Shown here: piece after piece, positions 3,813 to 44,056 of the stretch
How positions within the stretch are numbered: position 1 is the first letter of the stretch
Layout: the number at the start of each line of letters is the position of its first letter
From: a virus
Reading direction: 5' to 3' (one strand)
Virus record (IMG/VR): IMGVR_UViG_3300030388_001448
Coordinates: 1,143-45,771 of that record
Length of the DNA: 44,629 nt
Notes under the pieces: generated by a model
Seen by the model: only the letters and a program-made list of their open reading frames with translations
Databases searched by the model: none
What the model was told of the DNA's origin: nothing
Position numbers and translations under genes: made by a program

Positions 3813-6800
3813 TTATTTATTAAACTTTTCGTTATATTTTCTTAGATTTTCAGCTTTTTTTCTTATTTTTTCAGCTTTTTTATCTTCTTTTGACAAAGGT
3901 TTATCTTCGATTTTAGGATTATAATTTTTGTTTTTACTTTTCTGTAGCTGTAGTATTCTTTTTACTCTACCTTCTTCATTTTTAAGTCTTTTTATTTCCC
4001 AACTCTTTAATCCATATTGTTTTAATATAGACTTTTGTTCCCAAGCGGTATATCCATTAGGATCTTTATATAATTCTTCACGACCTTTATTCCGCTTTTG
4101 CTTAGGTGTTTCTATACTCCACTTAGACCAACCTGCTCCTAAAGCAATTTTTTGCCAAGTTTCTGTATCTTCGTCCATTACTGCAGATAAATTATCTATT
4201 TTTAATAAAACTCTATCCAAAGGCACGTTAGTTGTAGCAGAAACTACTTTAGCGCTAGCTAAAAAAGCTGGGTTATCTAAGCTAAAACCTTTATCTAGCA
4301 TTTCTTGTCTACGTTTTTTACTGTCAAATTGCCAAGCAGCTTGTCTAATTCTTGATATTTTAGAACCTATTGGTGGTGAAAACTGTAGTAATTTAAATAT
4401 AGAGTCTACGTAATCAGGCTTATCTCTTCCAGATCTTTTATATATATCAAATAAAAAGTTTTTAATTACAGAAACAGCTGCTCCACCAATACCAACACCT
4501 CTTAGCATTGAATCTAACATACCATTAGCTATGTCCATTGCTTTTTTGTTTTTAGCTTTAGTATTTGCTGCTTCTAATTCTTCGTCATCTTCATCTCCAA
4601 AACCTAATCCAAAAATAGCTTGTTGTAAAGAATTGAATATTATATTTTGAACAACTCCGTAATATATTATTTTACTTACATTAGTTTTGCTATCTCCTCT
4701 ACCTGCTGCTAAATCTTGAAAAGCCCTTTTTTGTAGTCTTGCATATTGCATAGGTGTATTTGCAAACATTAGTATTAATCTACCGTAGTCACTGGATTGT
4801 TGTTGTGATATTTTATCTGGCCTACTAGATTGTTGATTTTCCTCTGTTAATTCCATGAACTCAATCATTGCTTGCTCCTTTGCTTTAGCCTCTGTCATCC
4901 CGTTTTTAACTAAATCAACTATCCTGTTTCTATAATAAGTAGCTCCTCCACTTGCTATAGCAAAACTATCAGCATACTGAGTAGGTGCGTAACCTTTAGA
5001 TAATATGTAATTCAAAACTCCTTTAGCTTTGTTCTTACTAGTTGCAGCAGCATCAGCAATTTCAGACTCTGCTATATTTATTCTAAGTCCATTACGTCTA
5101 TCTTTTAAAAAATCAGAATTCATCAAATACATAAAATCTTTCCAATATTGAGGTTGATTAGCAAACGCAGCCCCAGCTTTTAATGGGTTATTAAAACTCC
5201 AATTCATAAAGTTAATACTAGATATTGTTTGAAGTATAGCAGATCTAGTGTTAAAAAACATTATAGCAGCATTAGATCCATTAATATAATTAAGTATTTT
5301 ATTACTTAATCTATTACCTTCTTGAAGCCTATTACTACCATTTTTCATACGTGATAATATATTTTTTAAAGCTTCAACGTATTTAGCTCCATAAGCAGCT
5401 TCTAATTTATTTAAGTTTTTCTCACTAAATATTATATCAACATTATCTTGCCATTCTTTAAGATATTCAGGTCTTTTAACTTCTTTTAATCCTCTCATTA
5501 AATCAGTAGTTATATTACCTACTAACCACTCTTTTAAAGGTGCTGGATATGGATCTTTATTTATTGTCAATAATTGATCAGCAAATTCTTTTAAAGTACT
5601 GTTATTCTCTATTATGGATATCATTTCTTTAGTGTCTGATTTTGATAAACCTGGAACTTCTAAACCTTGTTTATTCCATAAATAAACTCTTACCGCTTGC
5701 TCATTTGTAAAGCCATCAACAGCTTCTTTACCTAAGTCTTTAGGCACATTTAAATCTTCTTTTAGCTTTTTAAAATCACCCATTAAATTAACTCTAGCTT
5801 GCTGCAAGTTTATATTGGCTCTAGCAAAAGGATCTATTAAATTATGCTTAAACCAAGCCATTTGTTTATCACCTAAATCTCCTTTAGATAACAATGGATA
5901 TATTAAACCTGTAAAGTCTTCAGCTGAATATGGTATAAAAAATTGAAACTTATCTTTACCACGAACTTGAGCTTTGGCTTTTGAATATTGTTTTTCAGAA
6001 GCTATACCTGTTTTTTGTTCTATTATTTTATTAAAATCAGAATCTATATCTTTAGCCTGTTTGTATTTAGCTTGTTGAACTGTGGATTTAACATCTACAA
6101 TATCTAAAGCACTTCTAACTGCAGAAACGTTTTGTATTGCATCATCGGCAAAATAAAAATCATTATAACCTTCAGCTGCTTTATCTATTATCCAATTAGC
6201 TTTAGCCGCTCCTGTAGATTTACCTAATCCTGTTATATTTTTTAATGGTATTTCTAATCCTTGCGATTTTAAAAATTCATATATAGCAGGTGCTGCTTCA
6301 GAAGCTCTAGCTGTTAAAACAAATAAATCTTCATTACCTCTAGCGTCTCTAATTTGCTTAGCTAAATTAAATAAAGGACCACGACCACCATCAGTCACGT
6401 TGTTAAAGTCATCAAAATTAAAATTATAACCTTTACTTTGTAAGTCAAAACCTTCTGTTGCAAATTGCTCAGCATTTAATTCTGTGACTGTACCGTCTGG
6501 AGAAGTAGCTATAACTATATTGTTGCTAGTGGCTAAAGTGTCATCAAAGTCAAATACTCTAATTTTTCTAATTGGTGCTTTAGGATCTCTAGCTATTCTT
6601 AATGCTTCATCTATTGTTGCAGCTTTATTCAACACGTCCTGCATAGACATATCTTCATTTATATCTAAAACTCCAGTATTTTGTAATAAATCAATATCAA
6701 TATCTTTTGCTTGATTTATAGATCTACTTAGTACTTTAATTTTTTTATCAAGTATTTCTTGTTTAAAGATTTGCTTATAAGCTTTTTCACCATTTAAATA

Positions 6801-9800
6801 ATATATATTATTGCTTATTCCAGTTTGTTTATTTAAGAATTTAGTAAGTCTTAATATTCCTTCTGGGCTTGTTTTAGCAATTTTTTTACCACCTTCTATT
6901 CCTTTAGAATCTATAAGATCCATTATGTAGTTAGGCCCAAAAAACTGAGTATGACCAGATAGTATTTCATTTAAAGAAGCATTTGTTAAAGTACCTTTTA
7001 ACATGCCTTGAAACAACTTTGTCATGGTTATAGTGTTGGGTACTAAATGCTCTCCTTTAATTATTAAATCTACATAAGCAGAAGTACCTGCACCAAAAGC
7101 AGCTTGAACTTTAGCTTCTTCTAAAGTGTATTTTTTCTTACCATTTTTATCAAGTGCGTTTATATTATTTTTTAATCTTAAATCGTATCTACCTTTAAAC
7201 TCTGGAAACTCGTCTATGAATTCTTGAATAGAAGCGTCTTGCTGTTCTGTATTTAACTCAAGAAATTTTTCTTTACTAAGTCTTTTCTTTTTAAAACTCT
7301 CTATGTCTTGGTTACCATCTATTAAATATACATATTCCAACTTACTTAAAGCTCTTAAACCTTTAACAACACCTGTTTGTAATTGAAAAAACTGAAACAA
7401 CTGTAATGGTGTAATTTTTTTACCGTTTTTATATTCTTCTTGTATTTCTAACATTAAGTTTTTAAACAACTCCATATTAGCTACATTTGCATCTTGTATT
7501 GTTTGCTCAGAGTTCTGTAATAAAGAAAGCTTATTAGCTACAGTTCCATCACCAATTAAAGGTTTTAATACTTTACTAAGTAAAGGTAAAGTCTTATTCA
7601 TTGGCATAACATCTGCTGTATTAATATTGTTAGCTTTTTTAAATTTAGATGCTCTTGCTTTTATATACTGGTTGTAATACTCTCCAGCTTTACCAATTGA
7701 TTTTTTTAATTTTGCAGGATCTAAAAGTCTATTGCTAAAACCTACAAATTCTAAAGTCGAATTAAAAGCTTTTATTAAATCTGAGTCTATTATTTTAACA
7801 AGAGTTTGAGCAAAATTATTCATACTCTCTGCAGCAGGCTTGTTTATAGTTCTTACACCTTTATTTTTACTAGTAATTATATGGTTTTTATTGTCTATTT
7901 GTTTTCCAAGCTTTTGCTCTTGATCATTACCCTCTTTTAAATCTTTTTTAATTACTTTAACAAACTCTGCACCTTGTTCTAGCATAGGATCTTCTTCCAA
8001 CAACATATCTATAGCTTTAATTACGTTGTCATCTACACCTTCTATTGCTTCTTGAAACTCAGGTTTGTAATTACCTTCTTCATCTTTATATCCACCATCT
8101 AAAGAATAAGCTAAATCTGTTAATTCATTAGCTTTATCTACAAACTCTGATAATAAATCTGTTGGAATATCTATATCTTTAGCAAGTTTATAATCATTAC
8201 CTCTACCTAATTCCCTAGATATGAACATTATCTCTGCTTCTACTTTGTCTCTACCAAACTTTTCAGCTCTTTCATCAGTTAGTGTTGTTAGCTCGTAGCC
8301 TTCTTCACCTGGTTTTTTACCTAAGTTATCTTCAACTTTAGAATCTAAAACTTGTCTAAGAGCATCTTCTGTAAACTCAATGGCAGCTATTTTAGCTAAG
8401 CTATTACGTTTAGCGTCTGGTCTCTCTATGTCTACAAAAAAGTCAGTTAAGTCTTTAGGTGATAAACCAGGTTTTAAACGTCTTTTTGGATTACCAGCAT
8501 AAGGATCTTTAACTCTTGATCCTTCAGATCTTGACTCTTCCGCTAATGTTCTAGCTTGTTTACCAGTTTTTTCATCTATAATAGGTTCTGTAAGTTTACC
8601 TAATCTTTTGTTTAAAGTTGTTTGTTGAGCCTTACTTAATATAGCGGCTGCGTATTTTTCTATAAAATTTCTATATTTAGCACTTGTTGGTGTACCCATT
8701 AATTTTTTAACGTCAGTTTCTAAATCAGCAATAGCAGCGTTTCTAAGAGCTTTTAAAAATTTACCTGAACTTACATCTCCTAATGTAGTTCCTAACGTTC
8801 TCTTGGTGCTCTCTATGACTTTATTGTAAAAATCTCCGCCTTCTTTAATGTCTAAATCATTACCTAATTCTAAAAAGCTTTGTCTTAGTGATTTTTTTTC
8901 TTCTTTACTAAAATCTTGCTTTGGTTTTGATTGTGTAACTTCATCTGATTGCACACCAAGCATTGGAGCTACTATCTCTATAGCTCTATAAGGATCAAAC
9001 TCTTTAATAGCTTTACCTATAAACTGACCTAAAGTTATAGTATTCCTATAAGACTCTGGTTTGGCTAAATATTTATTTACATAATCTATAACACCTCTCT
9101 TATCTGAAAGTATTTGAAAAACCATATCGTCAACAGTGACAGCACCTTCAGACTGAAACCCAGTTTCTGAATCAATAACTCCAGCTACTTTAGGATTGTC
9201 TTTAACTGGGGTATTACCTATAACAAATTCTCTACCATTAACGTATCTTCTAACATCTTCTTCAAATTGAAAAGCTAATGCCGAAGGAAGACTTTCATTG
9301 TCAATACCCATATTGTCTATGAGTCCTTTTATCTCTATATCTTTAGCTTGTTTTTTACTTTCATTTGCTTTGGCTTTAGATGTGTTTCTTTCTTTATCAA
9401 ACTCTAAACCAGCTACATCTAAATCATCAGATATATTTATACCTTGATTAGCAGCTTTTACTTGAGCTCTTGTTAATCTACCTTTATTTATAGATTTATT
9501 ATAATCACCTATAAAATCTAAAATATCATCAGCATTATTAAACGCTATGTCTTTAGCTCCTGGTAAATTTTGATTTATTCTTCTCCAAGAATCTTTTAAA
9601 GCTCCTCCTAGTTTTTTATCTTTAGCAATTAATCCAAGATCCACAAATTCACTAAATAATGTTATCATTTCTTCGGCTTCTGCTTGAGTATTAACAGTTG
9701 CATCAATTTTGTATTTATTCAAAGTGTTTTTTAACATTTCTAAATTTTCATTAGGTATACCAGTTTTATCACTTTGATCTTGTATAGCTTTTAATCTTTT

Positions 9801-12584
9801 TTTAATGACATCAGCCATTCCAAAAACTTTATCAGGATTTGTTCTTAATGTATTTTTTAAAAATTTATGTAATATTTCATGAGCACCAGCAAAATAACCT
9901 ACACCATTAGATATTTTATCTAAGTTTATGAGTGCAACTTCTTTTCCATCTATATTTGTTTCTACAGCTCTACCACTAGCTGCTGCTTCTATTTCCTCTT
10001 CGGTGTCGTTAGTGTTATCTCTTAAATATTGTTTTAAAGACTCTTCATCTTCAAAAGTTAAAAAATCATCTATAACATCGTCAGACAATTGATCAGCTAC
10101 TTTTTTACTTTTATTAATTATATCTTCAGCTTTAGCTATATTAGATAATCTTTTATTTATTTGAGCTATTCTTAATTTTTCTGGTCCTACTTGTTCAGGT
10201 TCTAAACCGTCTATATCTCTTTCTATTTTAGCTCTTTCAACTAATAAATCTAATGATTCATTCCTAGCTTTTTGACTAAACTTACCGGGAACTCTGAGCC
10301 CAGCGTTTCTTATACTAGATATATCTTCTATTTCTTCTTGGTATGCTTTTTTATTTATTATATTACCATTACCATCTGAATACTTTTCTTTAACTTTTTG
10401 TAAAGCTGTTTTGTAAAATTGTTCTGTTTTTGCTAAATTACTATTAGGTGAAAATTCTTTTGCAAATTTTAAAGCGGCTGTTCTCATTTCTACACGACCT
10501 TGATAACCTACAGCTCCAAACCCAGGTAATACAGTACCTACAGTAACACCAGCTAAAAAGTTTTCCCATGTCTCTTCTCCGTTTAAATACTTAAATACAT
10601 CTCCTTGTTTAGCTCCAGTATTAATTTGTTGTAGTGTAGATTGTCCAGCCTCAGTTAATCCTTCAATAAACGAGTTAGGTGTTTGTTTTATAACACCGTC
10701 TTTCATGTTTTTTAATATAGCTTTAACATCTCCTCTAAATAACGATTTAACGCCTTGCTTATAACCAACATTCATTGATTTGAAAAAAGCTTTTAAAGTT
10801 TTAGTGGCACCAAGTTTTTCTAATCTACTCATTAAAGCTGCTGTAGCTAAATCTTGACCTACATTATCATATTCTCCACTAGCTATAGCTTTGTTTAAAT
10901 CTTCAGGTGTTATACCGTTTGGATATTTATTACCATCAGCCAGCATACCTTCTTTTACTCCTTCCATGTAATTTTCACCATAGAATTGAGCTGTAACTAA
11001 ACTACCACCAATAGTATTTAAAGCAGTCATTATAGGTATACCAACTTGAGGAGCAACAACACTAAGTGCTGTACCAGCAGACACAGCTGCCATCTGAGGT
11101 ATAGAACCACCTAAACCTATCATAGCATCTCTCCAGCTTATACCATCACTAAAATTAGCTTGAGCAGCCATATTTCTATAGTCTTCAAACTCATTTAATT
11201 GTTCTATATTTTCTTCTAAACTTTTACCGCCTTCAGATAGATTTTTTTCAGCTCCTTCTCTTAGTTCTTGTATAGTTCCTTGTATTAAAACTCTATCATC
11301 AGCTATACCTTCTTTTCTTTCTCCTATTCTTATAGAAACCTCATCATTATCATTTTTACCCTGTTGTGTTAATTCACTGAGCTTGTTTAATACTTCTTCA
11401 GAATCTCTAATTCTTTTACCATCAACCTGAGCTCCTATAGTGTTGAACGTATTAGGTCCTAAACTCTGCATGCTAACACCCATGCTCTCTACTCCAGCAA
11501 CTGCATTAGTTAAAGCATTACCTAACCAATTTCCTTTACCATTTCCAAAACGTTCTTGCCATTTATCAGACCAACTATACAACGTGCTTTTAGATCTACC
11601 TATCTCAGTTCTTCTCTCGCCATCAACTTTACCCATTGCTTCACTAATTTTCTTAGACTGACTTAGTATAACTGGGTCGTTCATCATAGATTTATCTACA
11701 ATAGTAGCGTAATATTCATTAACTTTTTGTTGTAATGCATCAACTCCACCTCTAGTATTTAAATCCCATAAATCAGCTTCAACTAATTCATCTCTATACG
11801 CATCTACTTTTGGTGCTAAATTTTTAATATAAAAATCTCTTCTTGAAGAAACTAAAGGATCATTGTTTATACTGTTGTCAAAGAATTCATTATAAATTTC
11901 TTTATCTTCCCCAAAAGTGTTTTGTCTTAGTTTTTCTTTTAAAGCTTCTAATATTTCATTATTATATAAATACTCATTTTCAATATTCTCTGGCTTTTGA
12001 TTCTCATCTTTTTGAACATCAGAATAATTTAAATTAGGCTTAGTAAAAACAGGTACAGGTATTTCATTTATTAATTTTAGCCTTTCATTACCATCTATGT
12101 CAGTTCTATTAGCTATATTATTTATCTTATCATTATAACCTTGTATTTGTTCTTCGTATAATTTACCTGAATTAGACTTTTCAATTGATGTTTTTTCTTT
12201 TTCAGTTAAAGCTTGGTCTTGGTTGTTTTCTGGCGCAAGCAAACCTACATTATTAATAGCTTCAGGCGTGTTTATTGGTTGACCAGTAATAGTGTTTATA
12301 GGTACAAAAGGTTTAGTATCTACAGGACCAAAAGCAAAATCTAATTGTTCTTCTTCTGTTAACAACCTATTGCCTTCAGTTGAATCTACATCAGCTTCAA
12401 CTTCAGATTGTTCAACTACAGTAGCTTCTAATCCAGCTGGACTACCTAAAGGATTGTTAGTTTCACCAACTCTTTTAATAAGATCAGAATTTATTTCTAA
12501 TAATCTTTCAAAAGTTATATTTAACTCTTCTGCTTTTTTTCTTAAAACGTCTTCACTTATTGGGTTGCCATCTATTTCGTACAT
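3813..12584 (-). CDS. Giant multidomain virion/ejection protein (T7 gp16-like position, polyvalent-type), 2923 aa
   Basis: The largest gene of the window and third of an ejection-protein set (231, 609, 2923 aa) that matches the order gp14-gp15-gp16 of T7. Visible parts: a short N-terminal motif (MYEIDGNPISEDVL); hydrophobic stretches at about 489-525 and 675-694; a metallopeptidase motif H902-E-I-L-H906 (HExxH); and a HAD phosphatase domain at about 2005-2170. The HAD domain has motif I D2012-F-D2014-D-T, then VLTAR, the GLGKSTGAAK lysine region and YFADDA. The helical C-terminal third has hydrophobic segments near 2637-2661 and 2693-2712 and a basic tail. AKDI recurs at about 1010, 1080, 1468, 1959 and 2177, the last two bracketing the HAD domain. 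No DxDGD or T7-type polymerase motif was found, so a virion RNA polymerase is unlikely. The likely role is entering the host with the DNA; the enzymatic roles are inferred from motifs only. Confidence 0.8.
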   Translation of the reverse strand: MYEIDGNPISEDVLRKKAEELNITFERLLEINSDLIKRVGETNNPLGSPAGLEATVVEQSEVEADVDSTEGNRLLTEEEQLDFAFGPVDTKPFVPINTITGQPINTPEAINNVGLLAPENNQDQALTEKEKTSIEKSNSGKLYEEQIQGYNDKINNIANRTDIDGNERLKLINEIPVPVFTKPNLNYSDVQKDENQKPENIENEYLYNNEILEALKEKLRQNTFGEDKEIYNEFFDNSINNDPLVSSRRDFYIKNLAPKVDAYRDELVEADLWDLNTRGGVDALQQKVNEYYATIVDKSMMNDPVILSQSKKISEAMGKVDGERRTEIGRSKSTLYSWSDKWQERFGNGKGNWLGNALTNAVAGVESMGVSMQSLGPNTFNTIGAQVDGKRIRDSEEVLNKLSELTQQGKNDNDEVSIRIGERKEGIADDRVLIQGTIQELREGAEKNLSEGGKSLEENIEQLNEFEDYRNMAAQANFSDGISWRDAMIGLGGSIPQMAAVSAGTALSVVAPQVGIPIMTALNTIGGSLVTAQFYGENYMEGVKEGMLADGNKYPNGITPEDLNKAIASGEYDNVGQDLATAALMSRLEKLGATKTLKAFFKSMNVGYKQGVKSLFRGDVKAILKNMKDGVIKQTPNSFIEGLTEAGQSTLQQINTGAKQGDVFKYLNGEETWENFLAGVTVGTVLPGFGAVGYQGRVEMRTAALKFAKEFSPNSNLAKTEQFYKTALQKVKEKYSDGNGNIINKKAYQEEIEDISSIRNAGLRVPGKFSQKARNESLDLLVERAKIERDIDGLEPEQVGPEKLRIAQINKRLSNIAKAEDIINKSKKVADQLSDDVIDDFLTFEDEESLKQYLRDNTNDTEEEIEAAASGRAVETNIDGKEVALINLDKISNGVGYFAGAHEILHKFLKNTLRTNPDKVFGMADVIKKRLKAIQDQSDKTGIPNENLEMLKNTLNKYKIDATVNTQAEAEEMITLFSEFVDLGLIAKDKKLGGALKDSWRRINQNLPGAKDIAFNNADDILDFIGDYNKSINKGRLTRAQVKAANQGINISDDLDVAGLEFDKERNTSKAKANESKKQAKDIEIKGLIDNMGIDNESLPSALAFQFEEDVRRYVNGREFVIGNTPVKDNPKVAGVIDSETGFQSEGAVTVDDMVFQILSDKRGVIDYVNKYLAKPESYRNTITLGQFIGKAIKEFDPYRAIEIVAPMLGVQSDEVTQSKPKQDFSKEEKKSLRQSFLELGNDLDIKEGGDFYNKVIESTKRTLGTTLGDVSSGKFLKALRNAAIADLETDVKKLMGTPTSAKYRNFIEKYAAAILSKAQQTTLNKRLGKLTEPIIDEKTGKQARTLAEESRSEGSRVKDPYAGNPKRRLKPGLSPKDLTDFFVDIERPDAKRNSLAKIAAIEFTEDALRQVLDSKVEDNLGKKPGEEGYELTTLTDERAEKFGRDKVEAEIMFISRELGRGNDYKLAKDIDIPTDLLSEFVDKANELTDLAYSLDGGYKDEEGNYKPEFQEAIEGVDDNVIKAIDMLLEEDPMLEQGAEFVKVIKKDLKEGNDQEQKLGKQIDNKNHIITSKNKGVRTINKPAAESMNNFAQTLVKIIDSDLIKAFNSTLEFVGFSNRLLDPAKLKKSIGKAGEYYNQYIKARASKFKKANNINTADVMPMNKTLPLLSKVLKPLIGDGTVANKLSLLQNSEQTIQDANVANMELFKNLMLEIQEEYKNGKKITPLQLFQFFQLQTGVVKGLRALSKLEYVYLIDGNQDIESFKKKRLSKEKFLELNTEQQDASIQEFIDEFPEFKGRYDLRLKNNINALDKNGKKKYTLEEAKVQAAFGAGTSAYVDLIIKGEHLVPNTITMTKLFQGMLKGTLTNASLNEILSGHTQFFGPNYIMDLIDSKGIEGGKKIAKTSPEGILRLTKFLNKQTGISNNIYYLNGEKAYKQIFKQEILDKKIKVLSRSINQAKDIDIDLLQNTGVLDINEDMSMQDVLNKAATIDEALRIARDPKAPIRKIRVFDFDDTLATSNNIVIATSPDGTVTELNAEQFATEGFDLQSKGYNFNFDDFNNVTDGGRGPLFNLAKQIRDARGNEDLFVLTARASEAAPAIYEFLKSQGLEIPLKNITGLGKSTGAAKANWIIDKAAEGYNDFYFADDAIQNVSAVRSALDIVDVKSTVQQAKYKQAKDIDSDFNKIIEQKTGIASEKQYSKAKAQVRGKDKFQFFIPYSAEDFTGLIYPLLSKGDLGDKQMAWFKHNLIDPFARANINLQQARVNLMGDFKKLKEDLNVPKDLGKEAVDGFTNEQAVRVYLWNKQGLEVPGLSKSDTKEMISIIENNSTLKEFADQLLTINKDPYPAPLKEWLVGNITTDLMRGLKEVKRPEYLKEWQDNVDIIFSEKNLNKLEAAYGAKYVEALKNILSRMKNGSNRLQEGNRLSNKILNYINGSNAAIMFFNTRSAILQTISSINFMNWSFNNPLKAGAAFANQPQYWKDFMYLMNSDFLKDRRNGLRINIAESEIADAAATSKNKAKGVLNYILSKGYAPTQYADSFAIASGGATYYRNRIVDLVKNGMTEAKAKEQAMIEFMELTEENQQSSRPDKISQQQSSDYGRLILMFANTPMQYARLQKRAFQDLAAGRGDSKTNVSKIIYYGVVQNIIFNSLQQAIFGLGFGDEDDEELEAANTKAKNKKAMDIANGMLDSMLRGVGIGGAAVSVIKNFLFDIYKRSGRDKPDYVDSIFKLLQFSPPIGSKISRIRQAAWQFDSKKRRQEMLDKGFSLDNPAFLASAKVVSATTNVPLDRVLLKIDNLSAVMDEDTETWQKIALGAGWSKWSIETPKQKRNKGREELYKDPNGYTAWEQKSILKQYGLKSWEIKRLKNEEGRVKRILQLQKSKNKNYNPKIEDKPLSKEDKKAEKIRKKAENLRKYNEKFNK

Positions 12585-15554: not shown

Positions 15555-17468
15555 TTACATTGATACTATATTGTAGTTTAGTGATATAGCGTATAATTCT
15601 TTCATTTGACCTGGATCTGTTGTAGTGTCAGTTGTGAATTCTACATCTAAATAATAACCTTTTATTCCTGATATATTAGGTCCAAAACTTATTTCACCTG
15701 GCGCTGCTATAGAAGCATTAACTAGATTAGCCATATATTTATTGTTTTTTCTATCAAAACCAGCTCTAAGTAAAGGATAATTAGCTGGTGAAGCTGAAGT
15801 ACCTGTATTACCAAGACTATCATAAGCTCCGTCTACATAACTTTTAATAACAGCTGCTGCGTCTCTATTAGTTTCCCATCCGCCACTCCAAGCGCCTCCA
15901 GCGTTTCTATCCATTGAAGAACCTGTTATATCAGATGTTAAAACTTTAGCTTCCCATCCACTCATACCTTCGTAATCAATAGTTAAAAAATTCTTTTGTA
16001 CTGACGCTTGAGAATTAGCAACTATTTTTACTGAAGACTTATTATTAACACCATAAAATTGACTATGTGGATTAGCATTTGAATAATGAGAATAAAGACC
16101 AGGTGTTATAGATACTGATTGTAAAGGGTTTGAATAAGGCTGTGTGTTAACTGTATAGAAAGTGCTTTTAAGACTACCTATTGCTAAAGGCATGTAACTA
16201 TAAAAACTAGGCCAACCTTTAACTTGTTCATCAAAACCAAGGGTTGAATAATTAGGATTTGGTATCCTAGGTAAACCGCTGTTTGCTGTGTTAATTATTT
16301 CTGCTTGTGGGTTCTCTTGAATAGACAAAACGTATTGTTTGTTATAAGCGTCATAACCACCATAATTTCTACTTCTGTAATAAGTTTCTATTTTTATTTT
16401 AATAACATTTTTTGTTGCTATTTCAGGTAAACTTTCACTTAATAATAAAAAATTATTTGTACTATTTTTTCTATATCCAACTACAGTAACACCAAGATCA
16501 GTATATACTGTTGAACCACTGTATTGAACAAAAACCCTACCTCCAATAGCTACTAAACCTTGTTTTAAAGGTTCTAGTGCGTTATTTACGTATGCTATAC
16601 AACTTTGATTACCAACTGGAGGGTTACTAGTTCCTGGCTCTGTTATTATTTCTACAGTATTAGTGTAATTGTCATTTAAAGGCGCTAGGCTGTCTCTAAA
16701 GTAATCTCTCATGCCATATTCAGATATTTCAGTTAAACCATCATGAGATAGTCTAAGAACAGCATTTCTATTTCTGTCTGTAAAATACTTTCTAAAAGAA
16801 TAAACCGCAAAACTTTCTGGGTTTTGACTTATACCATATTCTCCAGAATAAGGAACTACTTCTCCAATAACTTGATTTGAAGTAGTTATACTACCTCCTC
16901 CTTCAGCGTTATATATAGCGGCTTTATCTATTAAAGCTCTACTACATTTGTTCTCTTGAAGAACTATTAAATTGTTTTCTTCAGCATAAATCTTTTGTAT
17001 AGATCCATTGTTTGGATTTGCAGCTCTTGTTATGTTAGTTCCAGTTGGAAACTCATTAGTTCTATTTATACCAGTTCTAGAATTAAATATACCAGAGTAT
17101 ATTAAAGCATTAAATCTATGCTGTTGTAAAGGCTCCTCTTCATCTAGGTAAGCTCTAACACCATAGGACATATAAGGATTATTAAACCCACCTCTTATCA
17201 TCATTTCCTCTACATAAAAGTTTTCTTTAACTACAGAATTACTTAATCCAGCTGCTTGCGCAAATGGAGATGGAGGAAAGTTTGTATCAGCAAAAGTTAA
17301 TGGAGGTGCGTAGACATTATTTATAGGCCAAACGTTTTCAGGTGAAGAACCAGTACTACCAGGTACTACAACATTTGCAGTCTGCTCTTGAGCTTGTGGA
17401 GTTAATATTTTCTTGTTTATTATACAGTTAAAATAATCAACTTCAATTATTGGTAAGTTATTGGCCAT
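15555..17468 (-). CDS. Tail nozzle/tubular-type protein, 637 aa
   Basis: Beta-rich protein containing a stretch I recognise as widespread in podovirus tail nozzle proteins (T7 gp12/P22 gp10-like, crAss-like nozzle). Hallmarks are RFNALIYSGIFNSRTGINRTNEF at about 118-140, GSIQKIYAEENNLIVLQE, a SRALIDKAAIYNAEGG segment, YSGEYGISQNPESFAVYSFRKYF and RLSHDGLTEISEYGMRDYF. Such proteins form the lower part of the short tail that docks on the receptor. It directly follows (34-nt gap) the 1573-aa protein and precedes the acetyltransferase. No transmembrane segment. The start at MANNLPIIEVDYFNC leaves an A/T-only leader. Confidence 0.75.
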   Translation of the reverse strand: MANNLPIIEVDYFNCIINKKILTPQAQEQTANVVVPGSTGSSPENVWPINNVYAPPLTFADTNFPPSPFAQAAGLSNSVVKENFYVEEMMIRGGFNNPYMSYGVRAYLDEEEPLQQHRFNALIYSGIFNSRTGINRTNEFPTGTNITRAANPNNGSIQKIYAEENNLIVLQENKCSRALIDKAAIYNAEGGGSITTSNQVIGEVVPYSGEYGISQNPESFAVYSFRKYFTDRNRNAVLRLSHDGLTEISEYGMRDYFRDSLAPLNDNYTNTVEIITEPGTSNPPVGNQSCIAYVNNALEPLKQGLVAIGGRVFVQYSGSTVYTDLGVTVVGYRKNSTNNFLLLSESLPEIATKNVIKIKIETYYRSRNYGGYDAYNKQYVLSIQENPQAEIINTANSGLPRIPNPNYSTLGFDEQVKGWPSFYSYMPLAIGSLKSTFYTVNTQPYSNPLQSVSITPGLYSHYSNANPHSQFYGVNNKSSVKIVANSQASVQKNFLTIDYEGMSGWEAKVLTSDITGSSMDRNAGGAWSGGWETNRDAAAVIKSYVDGAYDSLGNTGTSASPANYPLLRAGFDRKNNKYMANLVNASIAAPGEISFGPNISGIKGYYLDVEFTTDTTTDPGQMKELYAISLNYNIVSM

Positions 17469-26962: not shown

Positions 26963-28093
26963 TTATGTTCTTTTTTTAATTTTCAACTTAGTCGAATCCG
27001 CTCCTGATATAGCTCTAACTTTCCAACCATTAGGCAATGTTTCACCAGTGTCCATAGGTTTTGGGGTAGAGTTTATATTTTTAGACTTTGCAACAATATC
27101 TTTAGTAGCGTCGGCTTTACCTTGCTCATAAAAATGTTGTGCTAGTTTGTCAGTGTTTCTTGCAGCATACATAGCCTTATGATATCCATCTAAATCTTCA
27201 ATATTTCCGTTTTTGTCCATAAACTTATTTATGAATTTTCCAACATCAGTTTGATTTTGACTTATATCTTCAGGGTTTGATAATTTGTACTTAAACTTTT
27301 TTTCTCCTACATTAAAATTGAAACCTTCAAAATCGTTTTGAAAATGTGTTTTAGTCTTATTAACAAAATCACTACGTCTACTAGCAATGGTTGATTGTTC
27401 TTTGTTGTATTGTTGTAAAAAGTCCATAGCTTTTTTCTGCTCATTAGTAACAGATGGCCTCAACTTGATTTCATCATAGTATTTACCTTTCATTTGCTCT
27501 AAAAAGTTCTTGGCTTTTGCAACTTCTTCTTTGTACGCTAGTTTTTGCTTACGTACAAATCTCTCTTCGTCCACTTCTTCATCATAAGTAAAATTATCTT
27601 TCATTACGAAATTAACTTCCTCTTCGTTAAGATGTGGTCTAGTTTTTTTATAAAATTCTTTAACAAGTAGTTTGTCATCATACTTATTATAGTCTTTATT
27701 TAGTGTAACGTAATCTTCAACAGTACCACCTGTTTCTTTCATAAAAGAAACTAATTTACCTACATTATCAGGTAAACTGTTTTGTTCTTCTACAATTTCT
27801 TTTGCAGGTTCTATGTTTTCAACTACTTTTTCAGTTATAACTTCCGTTACTTCTTCTTTTTCAATAGGTTTATCTACAACTTCTTCTAAAACATTTACTT
27901 TTTTAGTTTCTACTTTAGCTGGTTCCTCACTTTTTAATTGAATTTTAGTAGGTTCTTTATCTTTTTCAATTTGTCTTTTTTCAGCGTGAATATCTATTTT
28001 AGTAATTTCGTTTGTTTTGTTTAGATTTTTTGCTCTTGGTTTCTTTTTTATTTTAAGAGGCTCTTTTGTATCTTTTTCTGATTGTGTTGCCAT
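26963..28093 (-). CDS. Probable scaffolding protein, 376 aa
   Basis: Lies exactly between portal and major capsid genes, the usual place of the scaffold. The first ~110 residues are low-complexity, alternating Lys and Glu with Pro/Thr/Val (ITEKVVENIEPAKEIVEEQN), likely disordered. The middle is helical and highly charged (FVRKQKLAYKEEVAKAKNFL) and the C terminus is basic (STKLKIKKRT), as expected for capsid binding. No enzymatic motif, membrane segment or cysteine cluster. It resembles scaffold candidates in related phages; the assignment is by context. Confidence 0.65.
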   Translation of the reverse strand: MATQSEKDTKEPLKIKKKPRAKNLNKTNEITKIDIHAEKRQIEKDKEPTKIQLKSEEPAKVETKKVNVLEEVVDKPIEKEEVTEVITEKVVENIEPAKEIVEEQNSLPDNVGKLVSFMKETGGTVEDYVTLNKDYNKYDDKLLVKEFYKKTRPHLNEEEVNFVMKDNFTYDEEVDEERFVRKQKLAYKEEVAKAKNFLEQMKGKYYDEIKLRPSVTNEQKKAMDFLQQYNKEQSTIASRRSDFVNKTKTHFQNDFEGFNFNVGEKKFKYKLSNPEDISQNQTDVGKFINKFMDKNGNIEDLDGYHKAMYAARNTDKLAQHFYEQGKADATKDIVAKSKNINSTPKPMDTGETLPNGWKVRAISGADSTKLKIKKRT

Positions 28094-32731: not shown

Positions 32732-33003
32732 TTGCTTCTCCCCTCAGCAAAACCTTTAAAAGATTTTTGTTCTTTTATTTCTTTAGGTTTTTCATTTAAA
32801 ATATCTTCTTCTAACTGTATTCTAGTTAATATTTCAAAAGCGTCGAATATTGCTAGTTTTTTTGTTGCGGCAGCATTTTTTAATCTATCAGCGCTTAAAT
32901 CGTCGTCTGAGTCTACAATCTTTTCTTTTGCTACCTTAATTAGCTCCTCAACTGCTTTTTGTCCAGCTTGGATTATTTTCAATTTCGTTTCCTTCGTATT
33001 CAT
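32728..33003 (-). CDS. Candidate terminase small subunit, 91 aa
   Basis: Acidic-then-basic helical protein directly before TerL with an ATGA overlap (the ATG of TerL lies inside the stop). It starts within the last 56 nt of the tandem Cpn10 gene in another frame. The sequence KAVEELIKVAKEKIVDSDDDLSADRLKNAAATKKLAIFDAFEIL is all helix, with an N-terminal basic helix that could bind DNA. TerS proteins are poorly conserved and this one has no diagnostic motif; position and size are the support. Confidence 0.5.
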   Translation of the reverse strand: MNTKETKLKIIQAGQKAVEELIKVAKEKIVDSDDDLSADRLKNAAATKKLAIFDAFEILTRIQLEEDILNEKPKEIKEQKSFKGFAEGRSK

Positions 33004-33541
33004 TTATTAAAGCTATATCATTTGATTTCATACAATAAAGTCGTTCACCATTTATAATAAACTCAAATTCAGAGTTTGGTGTAAACGTAATAAGCTCTTC
33101 AGGTTTAATTCCTATAGCTTCTAACGACTTATCAGCATATTTGACTATACCAACGTTAGGTTGTTCTTTTTTATTGCTTAAATAATCTTTATTTAATATA
33201 GGCTTTATAAAGCAATAATTTAAATGAGGTTTTAGATTATACATGTATATCTGCTCAGGATTAACAAAATACATATCATCTTTAAAAAACTTGCTACTGT
33301 TTCTTGAAACACCTTTCTGATCATACCATCTTCTAAATATGTTATGATGTATATAAACTTCATCTTTAATATTTATAGGAGTTTCAAAAGCAGCTGGTAC
33401 GGCATATACAACTGCTTTTTTACTAACGAACTTATGATCTTTTATATTAGTATTTAAAATGAGAGAATTATTTCCTATTTTTTTTATATTATCATATCTT
33501 TCATTAATCGGCTTGACAATAAATTCATATAAACTTTTCAC
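32948..33541 (-). CDS. Tandem Cpn10 (GroES-like) protein, 197 aa
   Basis: Two GroES-like halves can be read in one chain. Half 1: LILNTNIKDHKFVSKKAVV then YAVP, TPINIKDEVYIHHN and FFKDDMYFVNPEQIYMY, aligning with GGIVL...RGEVLAVG, VKVGDIVIFND and NEEVLIMSESDILAIV of E. coli GroES. Half 2: NYCFIKPI, NVGIVKYADKSLEAIGIKPEELITF, then EFIINGERLYCMKSNDIALI, matching HDRVIVK, GEVLAVG, VKVGDIV and the same last strands. The start is GTG at 33541, overlapping the TAG of the previous gene. Homologues with the same start (MKSLYEFIVKP) and NPSW.KSS end occur in other phages (from memory). It may be a capsid-folding co-chaperonin working with the phage or host GroEL, or a Cpn10 fold reused for another assembly task. 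Confidence 0.7.
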   Translation of the reverse strand: MKSLYEFIVKPINERYDNIKKIGNNSLILNTNIKDHKFVSKKAVVYAVPAAFETPINIKDEVYIHHNIFRRWYDQKGVSRNSSKFFKDDMYFVNPEQIYMYNLKPHLNYCFIKPILNKDYLSNKKEQPNVGIVKYADKSLEAIGIKPEELITFTPNSEFEFIINGERLYCMKSNDIALINEYEGNEIENNPSWTKSS

Positions 33542-42249: not shown

Positions 42250-42510
42250 TTATAAAATTATAACAACATCAAACTCTTTAATGATTCTGTATTTTTTATT
42301 TTTTATTTCAATATTAAAACCAGCAACTTTATCATAATATATTTCATCACCTGTTTTTAAAACTAAAACTTCAGAGCCAGGTTTTACAACCTTAGCTCTT
42401 CTGTATCTTATATCTTCTCTTTGCTTTTCAGCTAAGATTAAACCCCCTTGGGTTTTTACATCCTTTTCTTTTATAGGATCTATAACTATATATTTACCTA
42501 TTGCTTTCAT
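42250..42510 (-). CDS. groES: Co-chaperonin GroES (Cpn10), 86 aa
   Basis: Lid of the chaperonin cage. Begins MKAIGKYIVIDPIKEKDVK; the mobile loop TQGGLILAEK corresponds to SAGGIVLT of E. coli GroES, and the beta barrel follows with AKVVKPGSEVLVLKTGDEIY (like RGEVLAVG..VKVGDIV) and KKYRIIKEFDVVIIL (like NEEVLIMSESDILAIVE). An ATG at 42531 would extend it by 7 residues, but MKAIGKY fits the family better. It overlaps the end of groEL by 17 nt, so the pair is co-translated, in the order groEL-groES, the reverse of the usual bacterial operon. Confidence 0.9.
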   Translation of the reverse strand: MKAIGKYIVIDPIKEKDVKTQGGLILAEKQREDIRYRRAKVVKPGSEVLVLKTGDEIYYDKVAGFNIEIKNKKYRIIKEFDVVIIL

Positions 42511-44056
42511 CTCTAATATTATTAATGACACAATCGGTAGACATTATAGTAGTTGCTACTGAAGCAGCGTTGATTAATGCACTTTTAGTAACTAGTAGAG
42601 GATCTATAATCCCTGCTTTCACCATATTAACTGCATTTCCTGTAACCACATCTAATCCTACGCCTTCTTCTTCAATAGAAACGCTTTCACTATCTATACC
42701 AGCGTTTTTAAGTATAATTTCATAAGGTTTTTTTATAGCACTGTAAAGCACTTCTTCACCTATTGAATTTGGTTTTAAAGTTTGTGCAGCGTTTAATAAA
42801 GCTATACCGCCTCCTGGCACTATACCTTCTTTGATTGCAGCTTTTGTAGCACAAATAGCATCTTCTACTCTATCTTTTTTTTCTTTTAATTCAACTTCTG
42901 AATTAGCACCAACTTTAACTACAGCAACTTTAGCTTTTAATCTGGCTAATCTAGTTTCTAACATAGCAACTAAACCTGGTGCTCTAGTGTCTTCTAGTTG
43001 CTTATTTATTAAATTAATAGTATCTTCTACTGCTTTATTGTTAAGCAAGTCAACTTGTATCAAAGTTTCACTATTGTTAGATACAGACTTAATACAATTA
43101 CCTAAATGTTCTGGCTCTATTATGTCCATATCATCTCCTAGGTCTTCGTTAATGAGTGTAGCACCAGTAACAGCACATAGATCACTCAATGTGTCTTTTT
43201 TACTGACTCCATAAACTGGTGCATCTATAATGTTAACCTTTATATTTCCCTTTACTCTATTCATCGCCAACGCGGAAACAACTTGTGGATCAACATCTGC
43301 TATAATTAATAAACTATCTTTAGATTGTATTATATGTTCTAATACCTTTTGAATTTGTCTTATATTTTCAATAGGTGATTCTACTATTAATACTAATGGA
43401 TTATCTAATTCTGAAGTTCCATTTTCTTTGTTAGTTATAAAATGATTACTTTTTAATGGTTGACTATATTGAACACCTTCTATTAATTCAACAGTAGTTG
43501 TAGCTTGATCATTTATTTCCATCATGACTATTCCTGTTTCATCCACCATTTTGAAAGCTTTAGCAATTAAAGATCCTGTTTCCTTATCGTTATTAGCTGA
43601 TATAGTTGCAACTTGATCTATTTTATTGCCTTTAATCTTTTTTGATATTTTATTTAAATAAACAACTACGTTATCAACACCTTTGTTTATTCCTTCTTTT
43701 ATAGATCTAACATCGTCTACCAAAGAATGTTTATTAGCTTCGTCTAATATAGCTTTAGCTAATATAGTAGCTGTGGTTGTGCCATCTCCAGCATCTTTAA
43801 CTGTTCTTTGTGCAGCATGTCTTATTAGTGTTGCTCCTATGTTTTCTATTGGATGTCTTAAGTTTATTGCATTAGCAACAGTAACACCGTCTTTAGTAAT
43901 AACAGGATTTCCAGTATGGTCTTCTAATATTACACATTTACCACTAGCGCCTAACGTTGATGCAACCGCATTTGTTAGTTTTTCTACGCCAGCTAGTATC
44001 TGACCTTTAGCATTTTCGCCAAAGGTCAGTTCTTTTACTAACTTTATTTCTTTCAT
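42494..44056 (-). CDS. groEL: Chaperonin GroEL, 520 aa
   Basis: ATP-driven folding cage, most likely for capsid or other virion proteins. Conserved parts: LGASGKCVILEDHTGNPVIT with KDGVTV at about 35-60, D91-G-T-T-T (nucleotide loop), an apical domain at about 185-370 including hydrophobic peptide-binding segments, D399 in RVEDAICATKAAI (ATPase aspartate, D398 in E. coli), GIVPGGGIALL at 411-421 and the C-terminal NAASVATTIMSTDCV. The Gly-Gly-Met tail of bacterial GroEL is absent (ends IRDESNR), and it is about 28 residues shorter. No Shine-Dalgarno sequence; the leader is A/T only. Confidence 0.96.
   Translation of the reverse strand: MKEIKLVKELTFGENAKGQILAGVEKLTNAVASTLGASGKCVILEDHTGNPVITKDGVTVANAINLRHPIENIGATLIRHAAQRTVKDAGDGTTTATILAKAILDEANKHSLVDDVRSIKEGINKGVDNVVVYLNKISKKIKGNKIDQVATISANNDKETGSLIAKAFKMVDETGIVMMEINDQATTTVELIEGVQYSQPLKSNHFITNKENGTSELDNPLVLIVESPIENIRQIQKVLEHIIQSKDSLLIIADVDPQVVSALAMNRVKGNIKVNIIDAPVYGVSKKDTLSDLCAVTGATLINEDLGDDMDIIEPEHLGNCIKSVSNNSETLIQVDLLNNKAVEDTINLINKQLEDTRAPGLVAMLETRLARLKAKVAVVKVGANSEVELKEKKDRVEDAICATKAAIKEGIVPGGGIALLNAAQTLKPNSIGEEVLYSAIKKPYEIILKNAGIDSESVSIEEEGVGLDVVTGNAVNMVKAGIIDPLLVTKSALINAASVATTIMSTDCVINNIRDESNR

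Follow-up and report, generated by a model that had tools for sequence, protein, structure and literature searches.

The giant gene and its setting

We analysed a stretch of viral DNA of 44,629 nucleotides (positions 1,143 to 45,771 of IMG/VR virus record IMGVR_UViG_3300030388_001448, a record of 45,771 bases), hereafter the window, and in particular a giant gene whose product of 2923 amino acids (aa) is, judging by covarying motifs at its domain borders, probably a polyprotein. The terminase and the portal protein group the window with Bacteroidetes podoviruses. The terminase is 63% identical to that of MW202828 and about 45% identical to those of Flavobacterium elemo phages, and weaker matches are to Cellulophaga (Pervagoviridae, Pachyviridae) and Tenacibaculum phages. 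The giant open reading frame (ORF) closes the structural block, the same place that is taken by the annotated structural proteins gp101 of phi40:1 and gp21 of elemoA; according to its database record, the former has been detected in virions by tandem mass spectrometry. From gene position and size, we infer that the 2923-aa protein is probably an ejection protein, injected into the host together with the DNA. At least several hundred homologues are present in IMG/VR; those compared, and their loci, are labelled by L-numbers. One copy with 77% identity belongs to a Flavobacteriaceae MAG bin, and Flavobacteriia are the probable hosts. A tblastn search with the giant against 50,697 phage records gave no homologue, and in the giants of phi40:1, phi19:3, Gundel_1, elemoA and MW202828 neither the landmark of the HAD domain described below nor an obvious recurrent motif was found. 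The giant of MW202828 (L010, 741-12320) is 3859 aa long and has two HExxH motifs; its annotation as a 'reticulocyte binding/rhoptry protein' is very probably wrong.

The features of the window protein are collected in Table 1. Several unrelated enzymatic domains share one chain, namely an HExxH...E domain, a HAD domain of the polynucleotide kinase (PNK)-phosphatase type and, in homologues, an AAA_33/PNK-like kinase. When 76 homologous HExxH regions were aligned (alignment A3), the only invariant columns were the His, Glu and His of the motif and a downstream Glu, with an HExxxH variant in L048, L066 and L082. The metallopeptidases of polyvalent proteins have the same arrangement, with HExxH or HExxxH and a Glu on the next helix. 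The AlphaFold model of this zincin-like domain has a mean predicted local distance difference test (pLDDT) score of 78.5. Its best viral Foldseek matches, none of them significant, are giant or polyvalent proteins of phages (E-values 0.03-0.3); a giant from a crAss-like phage and proteins labelled 'large polyvalent protein-associated domain' are among the better ones.

The HAD domain matches the polynucleotide kinase family phrog_415 (E-value 1.6e-4). It has motif I FDFDDT at residue 2011 (DxDxT), followed downstream by LTAR and FADDA (the DD motif), and Foldseek returned weak, non-significant matches to several HAD phosphatases. A P-loop kinase is inserted within this domain in L044, L069 and L070, and that of L070 matches AAA_33 (zeta-toxin-like) as well as a phrog PNK family. 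These insertions fit both the phrog_415 match and the role of a nucleic-acid 3'-phosphatase that the sequence suggests for the domain. The three homologues would thus carry a kinase-phosphatase fusion in an injected protein, which might serve to repair the ends of RNA or DNA soon after infection begins.

Table 1. Features of the giant gene, in window coordinates
Feature	Position	Strand	Basis
Giant structural/ejection-type protein, polyvalent-protein-like polyprotein candidate, 2923 aa	3813..12584	(-)	ORF call and IMG/VR homologues
Zincin-like domain, aa 828-1035	9480..10103	(-)	76-homologue alignment, AlphaFold, weak Foldseek matches
HEILH motif, aa 902-906	9867..9881	(-)	Aligned HExxH in the first 8 homologues; HExxH or HExxxH in 76
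Invariant Glu972, probable third zinc ligand	9669..9671	(-)	Invariant column E145 of alignment A3
AKDI copy 1, aa 1010, chance match in folded domain, rejected as site	9546..9557	(-)	Model, scan, relatives
AKDI copy 2, aa 1080, candidate post-zincin border site	9336..9347	(-)	Covariation; model pLDDT < 50
AKDI copy 3, aa 1468, candidate border site	8172..8183	(-)	Covariation; model segment 31-72 with pLDDT < 50
AKDI copy 4, aa 1959, candidate pre-HAD border site	6699..6710	(-)	Covariation; block pLDDT about 65, predicted helix
HAD phosphatase domain, PNK-phosphatase-like, aa 2001-2170	6075..6584	(-)	phrog_415, weak Foldseek matches, kinase insertions in homologues
AKDI copy 5, aa 2177, candidate post-HAD border site, anchor of the covariation tests	6045..6056	(-)	Block pLDDT dips to 59, linker helix
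Most conserved C-terminal region, aa 2185-2825	4110..6032	(-)	Homologue comparison

Five copies of AKDI in the window protein

The initial annotation had pointed to a recurring AKDI motif in the giant, and its positions were borne out. AKDI occurs exactly five times (residues 1010, 1080, 1468, 1959 and 2177), compared with 0.12 copies expected by composition, and in only 1 of 1000 shuffles did any 4-mer reach five copies. As claimed, the HAD domain, whose motif I starts at residue 2011, lies between the copies at 1959 and 2177. The motif had not been noticed in the other virion proteins, and indeed no other protein of the window contains AKDI, the nearest word being a single AKDV in a 1573-aa protein.

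The copy at 1010 did not stand up. It had been placed after the HExxH domain; instead, it lies inside that domain, which is modelled with confidence, in an ordered 10-residue block (pLDDT 83) flanked by helix 168-178 and strand 187-190 (model numbering). None of the closest relatives keeps it: the word is PGAKNL in L012 and L013, and L014, L016 and L228 lack it. The scan segment containing this residue is marginal (P 0.02 among about 15 tests). We therefore rejected it as a site. It is an example of a short lysine-rich word that turns up again by chance in a protein itself rich in lysine; for the other four copies, chance is refuted by the shuffles together with the recurrence counts, covariation and replication given below, and its probability as a general explanation is close to nil.

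AlphaFold models were made for aa 828-1125 and aa 1400-2260. Sites 1080 and 1468 fall into segments with pLDDT below 50, site 2177 into a pLDDT dip (block mean 59) within a linker helix, and site 1959 into a helix of moderate confidence (block mean about 65). As a check on whether the sites are exposed, the models fit accessible borders at 1080 and 1468, are neutral for 1959 and 2177, and speak against 1010.

Border motifs covary within one protein

It had been proposed to look for conservation of AKDI among homologues, and here the outcome is divided. The literal word is missing from nearly all of the IMG/VR homologues examined, but the same borders carry a covarying, lineage-specific equivalent. 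Depending on the lineage, the post-HAD border reads QAKDID, KFSKT, KASKR, LASKNL, MNASNKM, NTSEKM, LNESKNL or yet another word, and the site consensus is [VLA]-K-[FA]-[SA]-K-x. The AKDI lineage (six proteins) has AK[DN][ILV] at all four sites. In L014, L016 and L228, which belong to the QAKD lineage, [AS]K[DN][ILV] is found four times per about 3000 residues, solely at the four sites, while the sister lineage L015/L017 has KFSL/KFSE at the positions of 1468 and 2177. In other words, AKDI is one lineage's version of a border motif. Motif discovery by expectation maximisation across all homologues drifted onto conserved homologous blocks and was dropped.

The post-HAD words recur in their own protein 142 times (78 proteins), whereas words of random segments recur 44 +/- 7.4 times, with 76 as the highest count in 1000 trials. 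For the pre-HAD border, the best 5-residue match was scored between the post-HAD site and the segment 62-22 residues ahead of HAD motif I. The match within a protein (17.0, n = 70 proteins) exceeded both the match across proteins (13.28) and the maximum of 20,000 permutations (14.90), and three control segments gave no covariation signal. Kinship does not explain this matching, because cross pairs that are 70-100% identical at the C-terminus reach a score of only 14.6. The result was replicated with 49 further proteins dissimilar to the first set (own 16.84 versus cross 14.28, P <= 1e-4, controls null). The two remaining borders behave alike: the post-zincin segment (w1045-1090) matches the post-HAD site with 15.08 within and 12.40 across proteins (permutation maximum 13.57), and the w1450-1490 segment with 14.98 and 12.82 (permutation maximum 14.48). 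Along the protein, the excess of the own motif is confined to these two segments and the pre-HAD one, other segments being null or weak.

Such similarity might also mark ordinary conserved linkers or remnants of module duplication, alike by shared descent or gene conversion, and linkers of swapped modules had been offered as an explanation from the start. Modules are in fact inserted at these borders in some homologues: L014/L016 and L073 have an extra domain exactly at the post-HAD site, with site-like words flanking it on both sides. Plain linkers, however, would not covary, and the motifs shift together between sister lineages (QAKD versus KFSL/KFSE). Moreover, the similarity spans only about five residues. 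In the 34 proteins with identical words of at least four residues at both HAD-flanking sites, 89 of 161 codons are identical, compared with 89.3 predicted by codon usage. Since codons agree at the chance rate, the matching reflects selection or convergence at the protein level and not copied DNA, so that duplicated DNA is excluded as the origin of the words. The linker explanation is thereby largely refuted, and we consider it very improbable. The extra domain itself (TGTGDSVKVI...RVKLYxTLM...LGW) seems to be mobile, occupying the post-HAD site in L014, L016 and L073, with a related domain inside the HAD loop of L088.

Taken at sequence level, covariation within one protein is stronger support for a recognised processing site than plain conservation would be, and the covarying border motif is best explained by one recognising factor.

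Other proteins of the same loci

The lineage word shows no excess in the other ORFs of the same loci (0.068 own versus 0.077 cross per 1000 aa). The protein encoded between the portal and capsid genes was considered as a second substrate and rejected: it does not covary with the motif of the giant, and its AKNL/SKNI words are positionally conserved, independently of the lineage motif. In the window this is a charged 376-aa protein (26963-28093), probably scaffold-like, and its C-terminal KSKNI is kept by nearly all relatives. Searches with ORFs of the window brought up no recognisable protease of the prohead type.

Two further observations concern the gene content. The product of window 15555-17468 has the C-terminal domain of the crassvirus muzzle protein (PF25729, E-value 9.5e-7), which ties these podoviruses to the crassvirus tail. 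GroEL is encoded at 42494-44056 and a GroES-like protein at 32948-33541, both of which are annotated in the related elemo and MW202828 genomes too.

A candidate polyprotein and its possible protease

Based on the covariation, we think it probable that the giant is a virion polyprotein of the polyvalent-protein kind with four border sites (1080, 1468, 1959 and 2177) that are recognised and cut by one protease. Four short linear sites at domain borders would be recognised by a single protease and then cut, releasing an N-terminal part with the zincin (about 1080 aa), middle modules of about 390 and 490 aa, the HAD phosphatase (about 218 aa) and the C-terminal remainder (about 746 aa). Because this multidomain, presumably injected protein has its own zincin, the recognising factor is most likely a protease; that recognition means cleavage, and with it the set of fragments, we infer from the sequence. 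The earlier suggestion of protease processing at AKDI thus survives for four sites as covarying border motifs, but neither for residue 1010 nor for AKDI as a conserved word. Less certain is that the protease is the zincin-like domain of the same chain and that it acts in the head or after ejection. It is tempting to speculate that this zincin, acting within the capsid or once ejected, cuts its own chain at the sites specific to the lineage, and that separate effectors, for instance a nucleic-acid 3'-phosphatase, are set free in the host; we give this fuller scenario somewhat less than an even chance.

The link to the zincin was addressed by comparing regions of the giant. Of eight regions, the zincin is the best at predicting motif similarity (Spearman 0.23, partial 0.13, P 0.003). 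Partial Mantel tests nevertheless do not single it out, though it scores highest, and since flanking regions predict the motif too, the tracking is suggestive only.

A number of observations weigh against processing by the same-chain zincin, or against processing altogether. The regions adjoining the zincin also track motif class (partial 0.10-0.11), and Foldseek with the zincin-like domain gave weak, non-significant metallopeptidase matches. In L047, the residues that align to window aa 902 read EELFH and not HExxH, so that its zincin is likely inactive, yet it has three matched KFSK sites. YSDR lineages (e.g. L055 and L064) have no matched post-HAD site. Sites 1959 and 2177 are modelled as helix, with moderate to low confidence. 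The permutations ignore phylogeny, though close relatives fail to reproduce the effect. Finally, the N4 virion RNA polymerase, which has a similar zincin-like domain, is packaged uncut (PMC5512222).

Alternatively, the sites might be cut by another protease, either a prohead-type enzyme of the phage or a host enzyme after injection, with the lineage changes following the host or that protease. Retention of the sites in L047 despite its degenerate HExxH would be expected in this case. Assemblin-type proteases have (V/I/L)-x-A|S sites, which the form [VLA]-K-[FA]-S-K of the consensus resembles. In giant phages, ejection proteins are also known to be processed by prohead proteases at short motifs, AXE being that of SPN3US (PMC10052503). 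However, no enzyme of this type was recognised among the ORFs searched, other virion proteins, including the one encoded between the portal and capsid genes, are without the lineage motif, and it is zincin similarity that tracks motif class best. We therefore regard cutting by a different protease as unlikely. It is also conceivable that the motif is not cleaved at all and that each module uses its copy to dock to a packaging chaperone, the portal or another partner. Any linear motif recognised in trans would covary alike, and these phages encode GroEL and GroES-like proteins. On the other hand, the sites are placed strictly at borders, and they frame a compact enzyme domain as well as an inserted module. 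Processing sites typically have such positions, whereas docking sites need not occupy every border. Docking is thus improbable in our view, less so than plain linkers but more so than a different protease.

Comparison with known ejected proteins

In phiKZ, ejection proteins are processed by the prohead protease. The giant resembles SPN3US gp245 with its AXE sites (PMC10052503) in having a short linear motif at several places of an injected head protein, and related giant phages have similarly cleaved proteins (PMC10052503). In SPN3US and phiKZ, however, the cutting is done by a separate prohead protease, and at most sites it strips N-terminal propeptides off several different proteins. The candidate sites described here instead separate the domains of a single protein, and the motif is absent from those neighbouring virion proteins that were tested.

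A parallel is also provided by the polyvalent proteins of phages and conjugative elements (Iyer et al. 2017, PMC5512222), in which an HExxH/HExxxH...E domain likewise stands beside unrelated enzyme domains (here HAD and PNK-like kinase). In the parts of that paper covered, self-processing by the zincin is predicted and DdrB of phage P1 is cited as cut. Its peptidase section names no processing sites, and a site motif for such processing is not described in the literature passages covered; in contrast, covariation provides four candidates per protein here. The N4 virion RNA polymerase is similar in that it is ejected, is very large and has a zincin-like domain (PMC5512222), but no RNA polymerase domain was recognised in the window giant. 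As a large protein of the structural block that is expected in the virion, the giant is also reminiscent of crassvirus cargo proteins (PMC10172136), phi40:1 gp101 and elemoA gp21. It differs from the giants of crassviruses and Bacteroidetes podoviruses in that tblastn found no homologue in the phage records searched. The main text of the crassvirus structure paper (PMC10172136) does not mention cleavage or a protease.

Zincin-bearing polyvalent ejected proteins are widespread, but when self-processing was proposed for them in 2017, no sites were known. Across a large phage family, the covariation signature pinpoints candidate sites to the residue, which makes the prediction directly testable, and motif covariation within one protein offers a general way to locate such sites in other giant virion proteins. 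If the zincin does cut its own sites, protease specificity and all of the sites would coevolve in each phage lineage, perhaps so that co-infecting relatives are not cut and neither they nor host proteases cut the giant. Processing of the polyprotein would then let these phages deliver more than one effector from a single gene.
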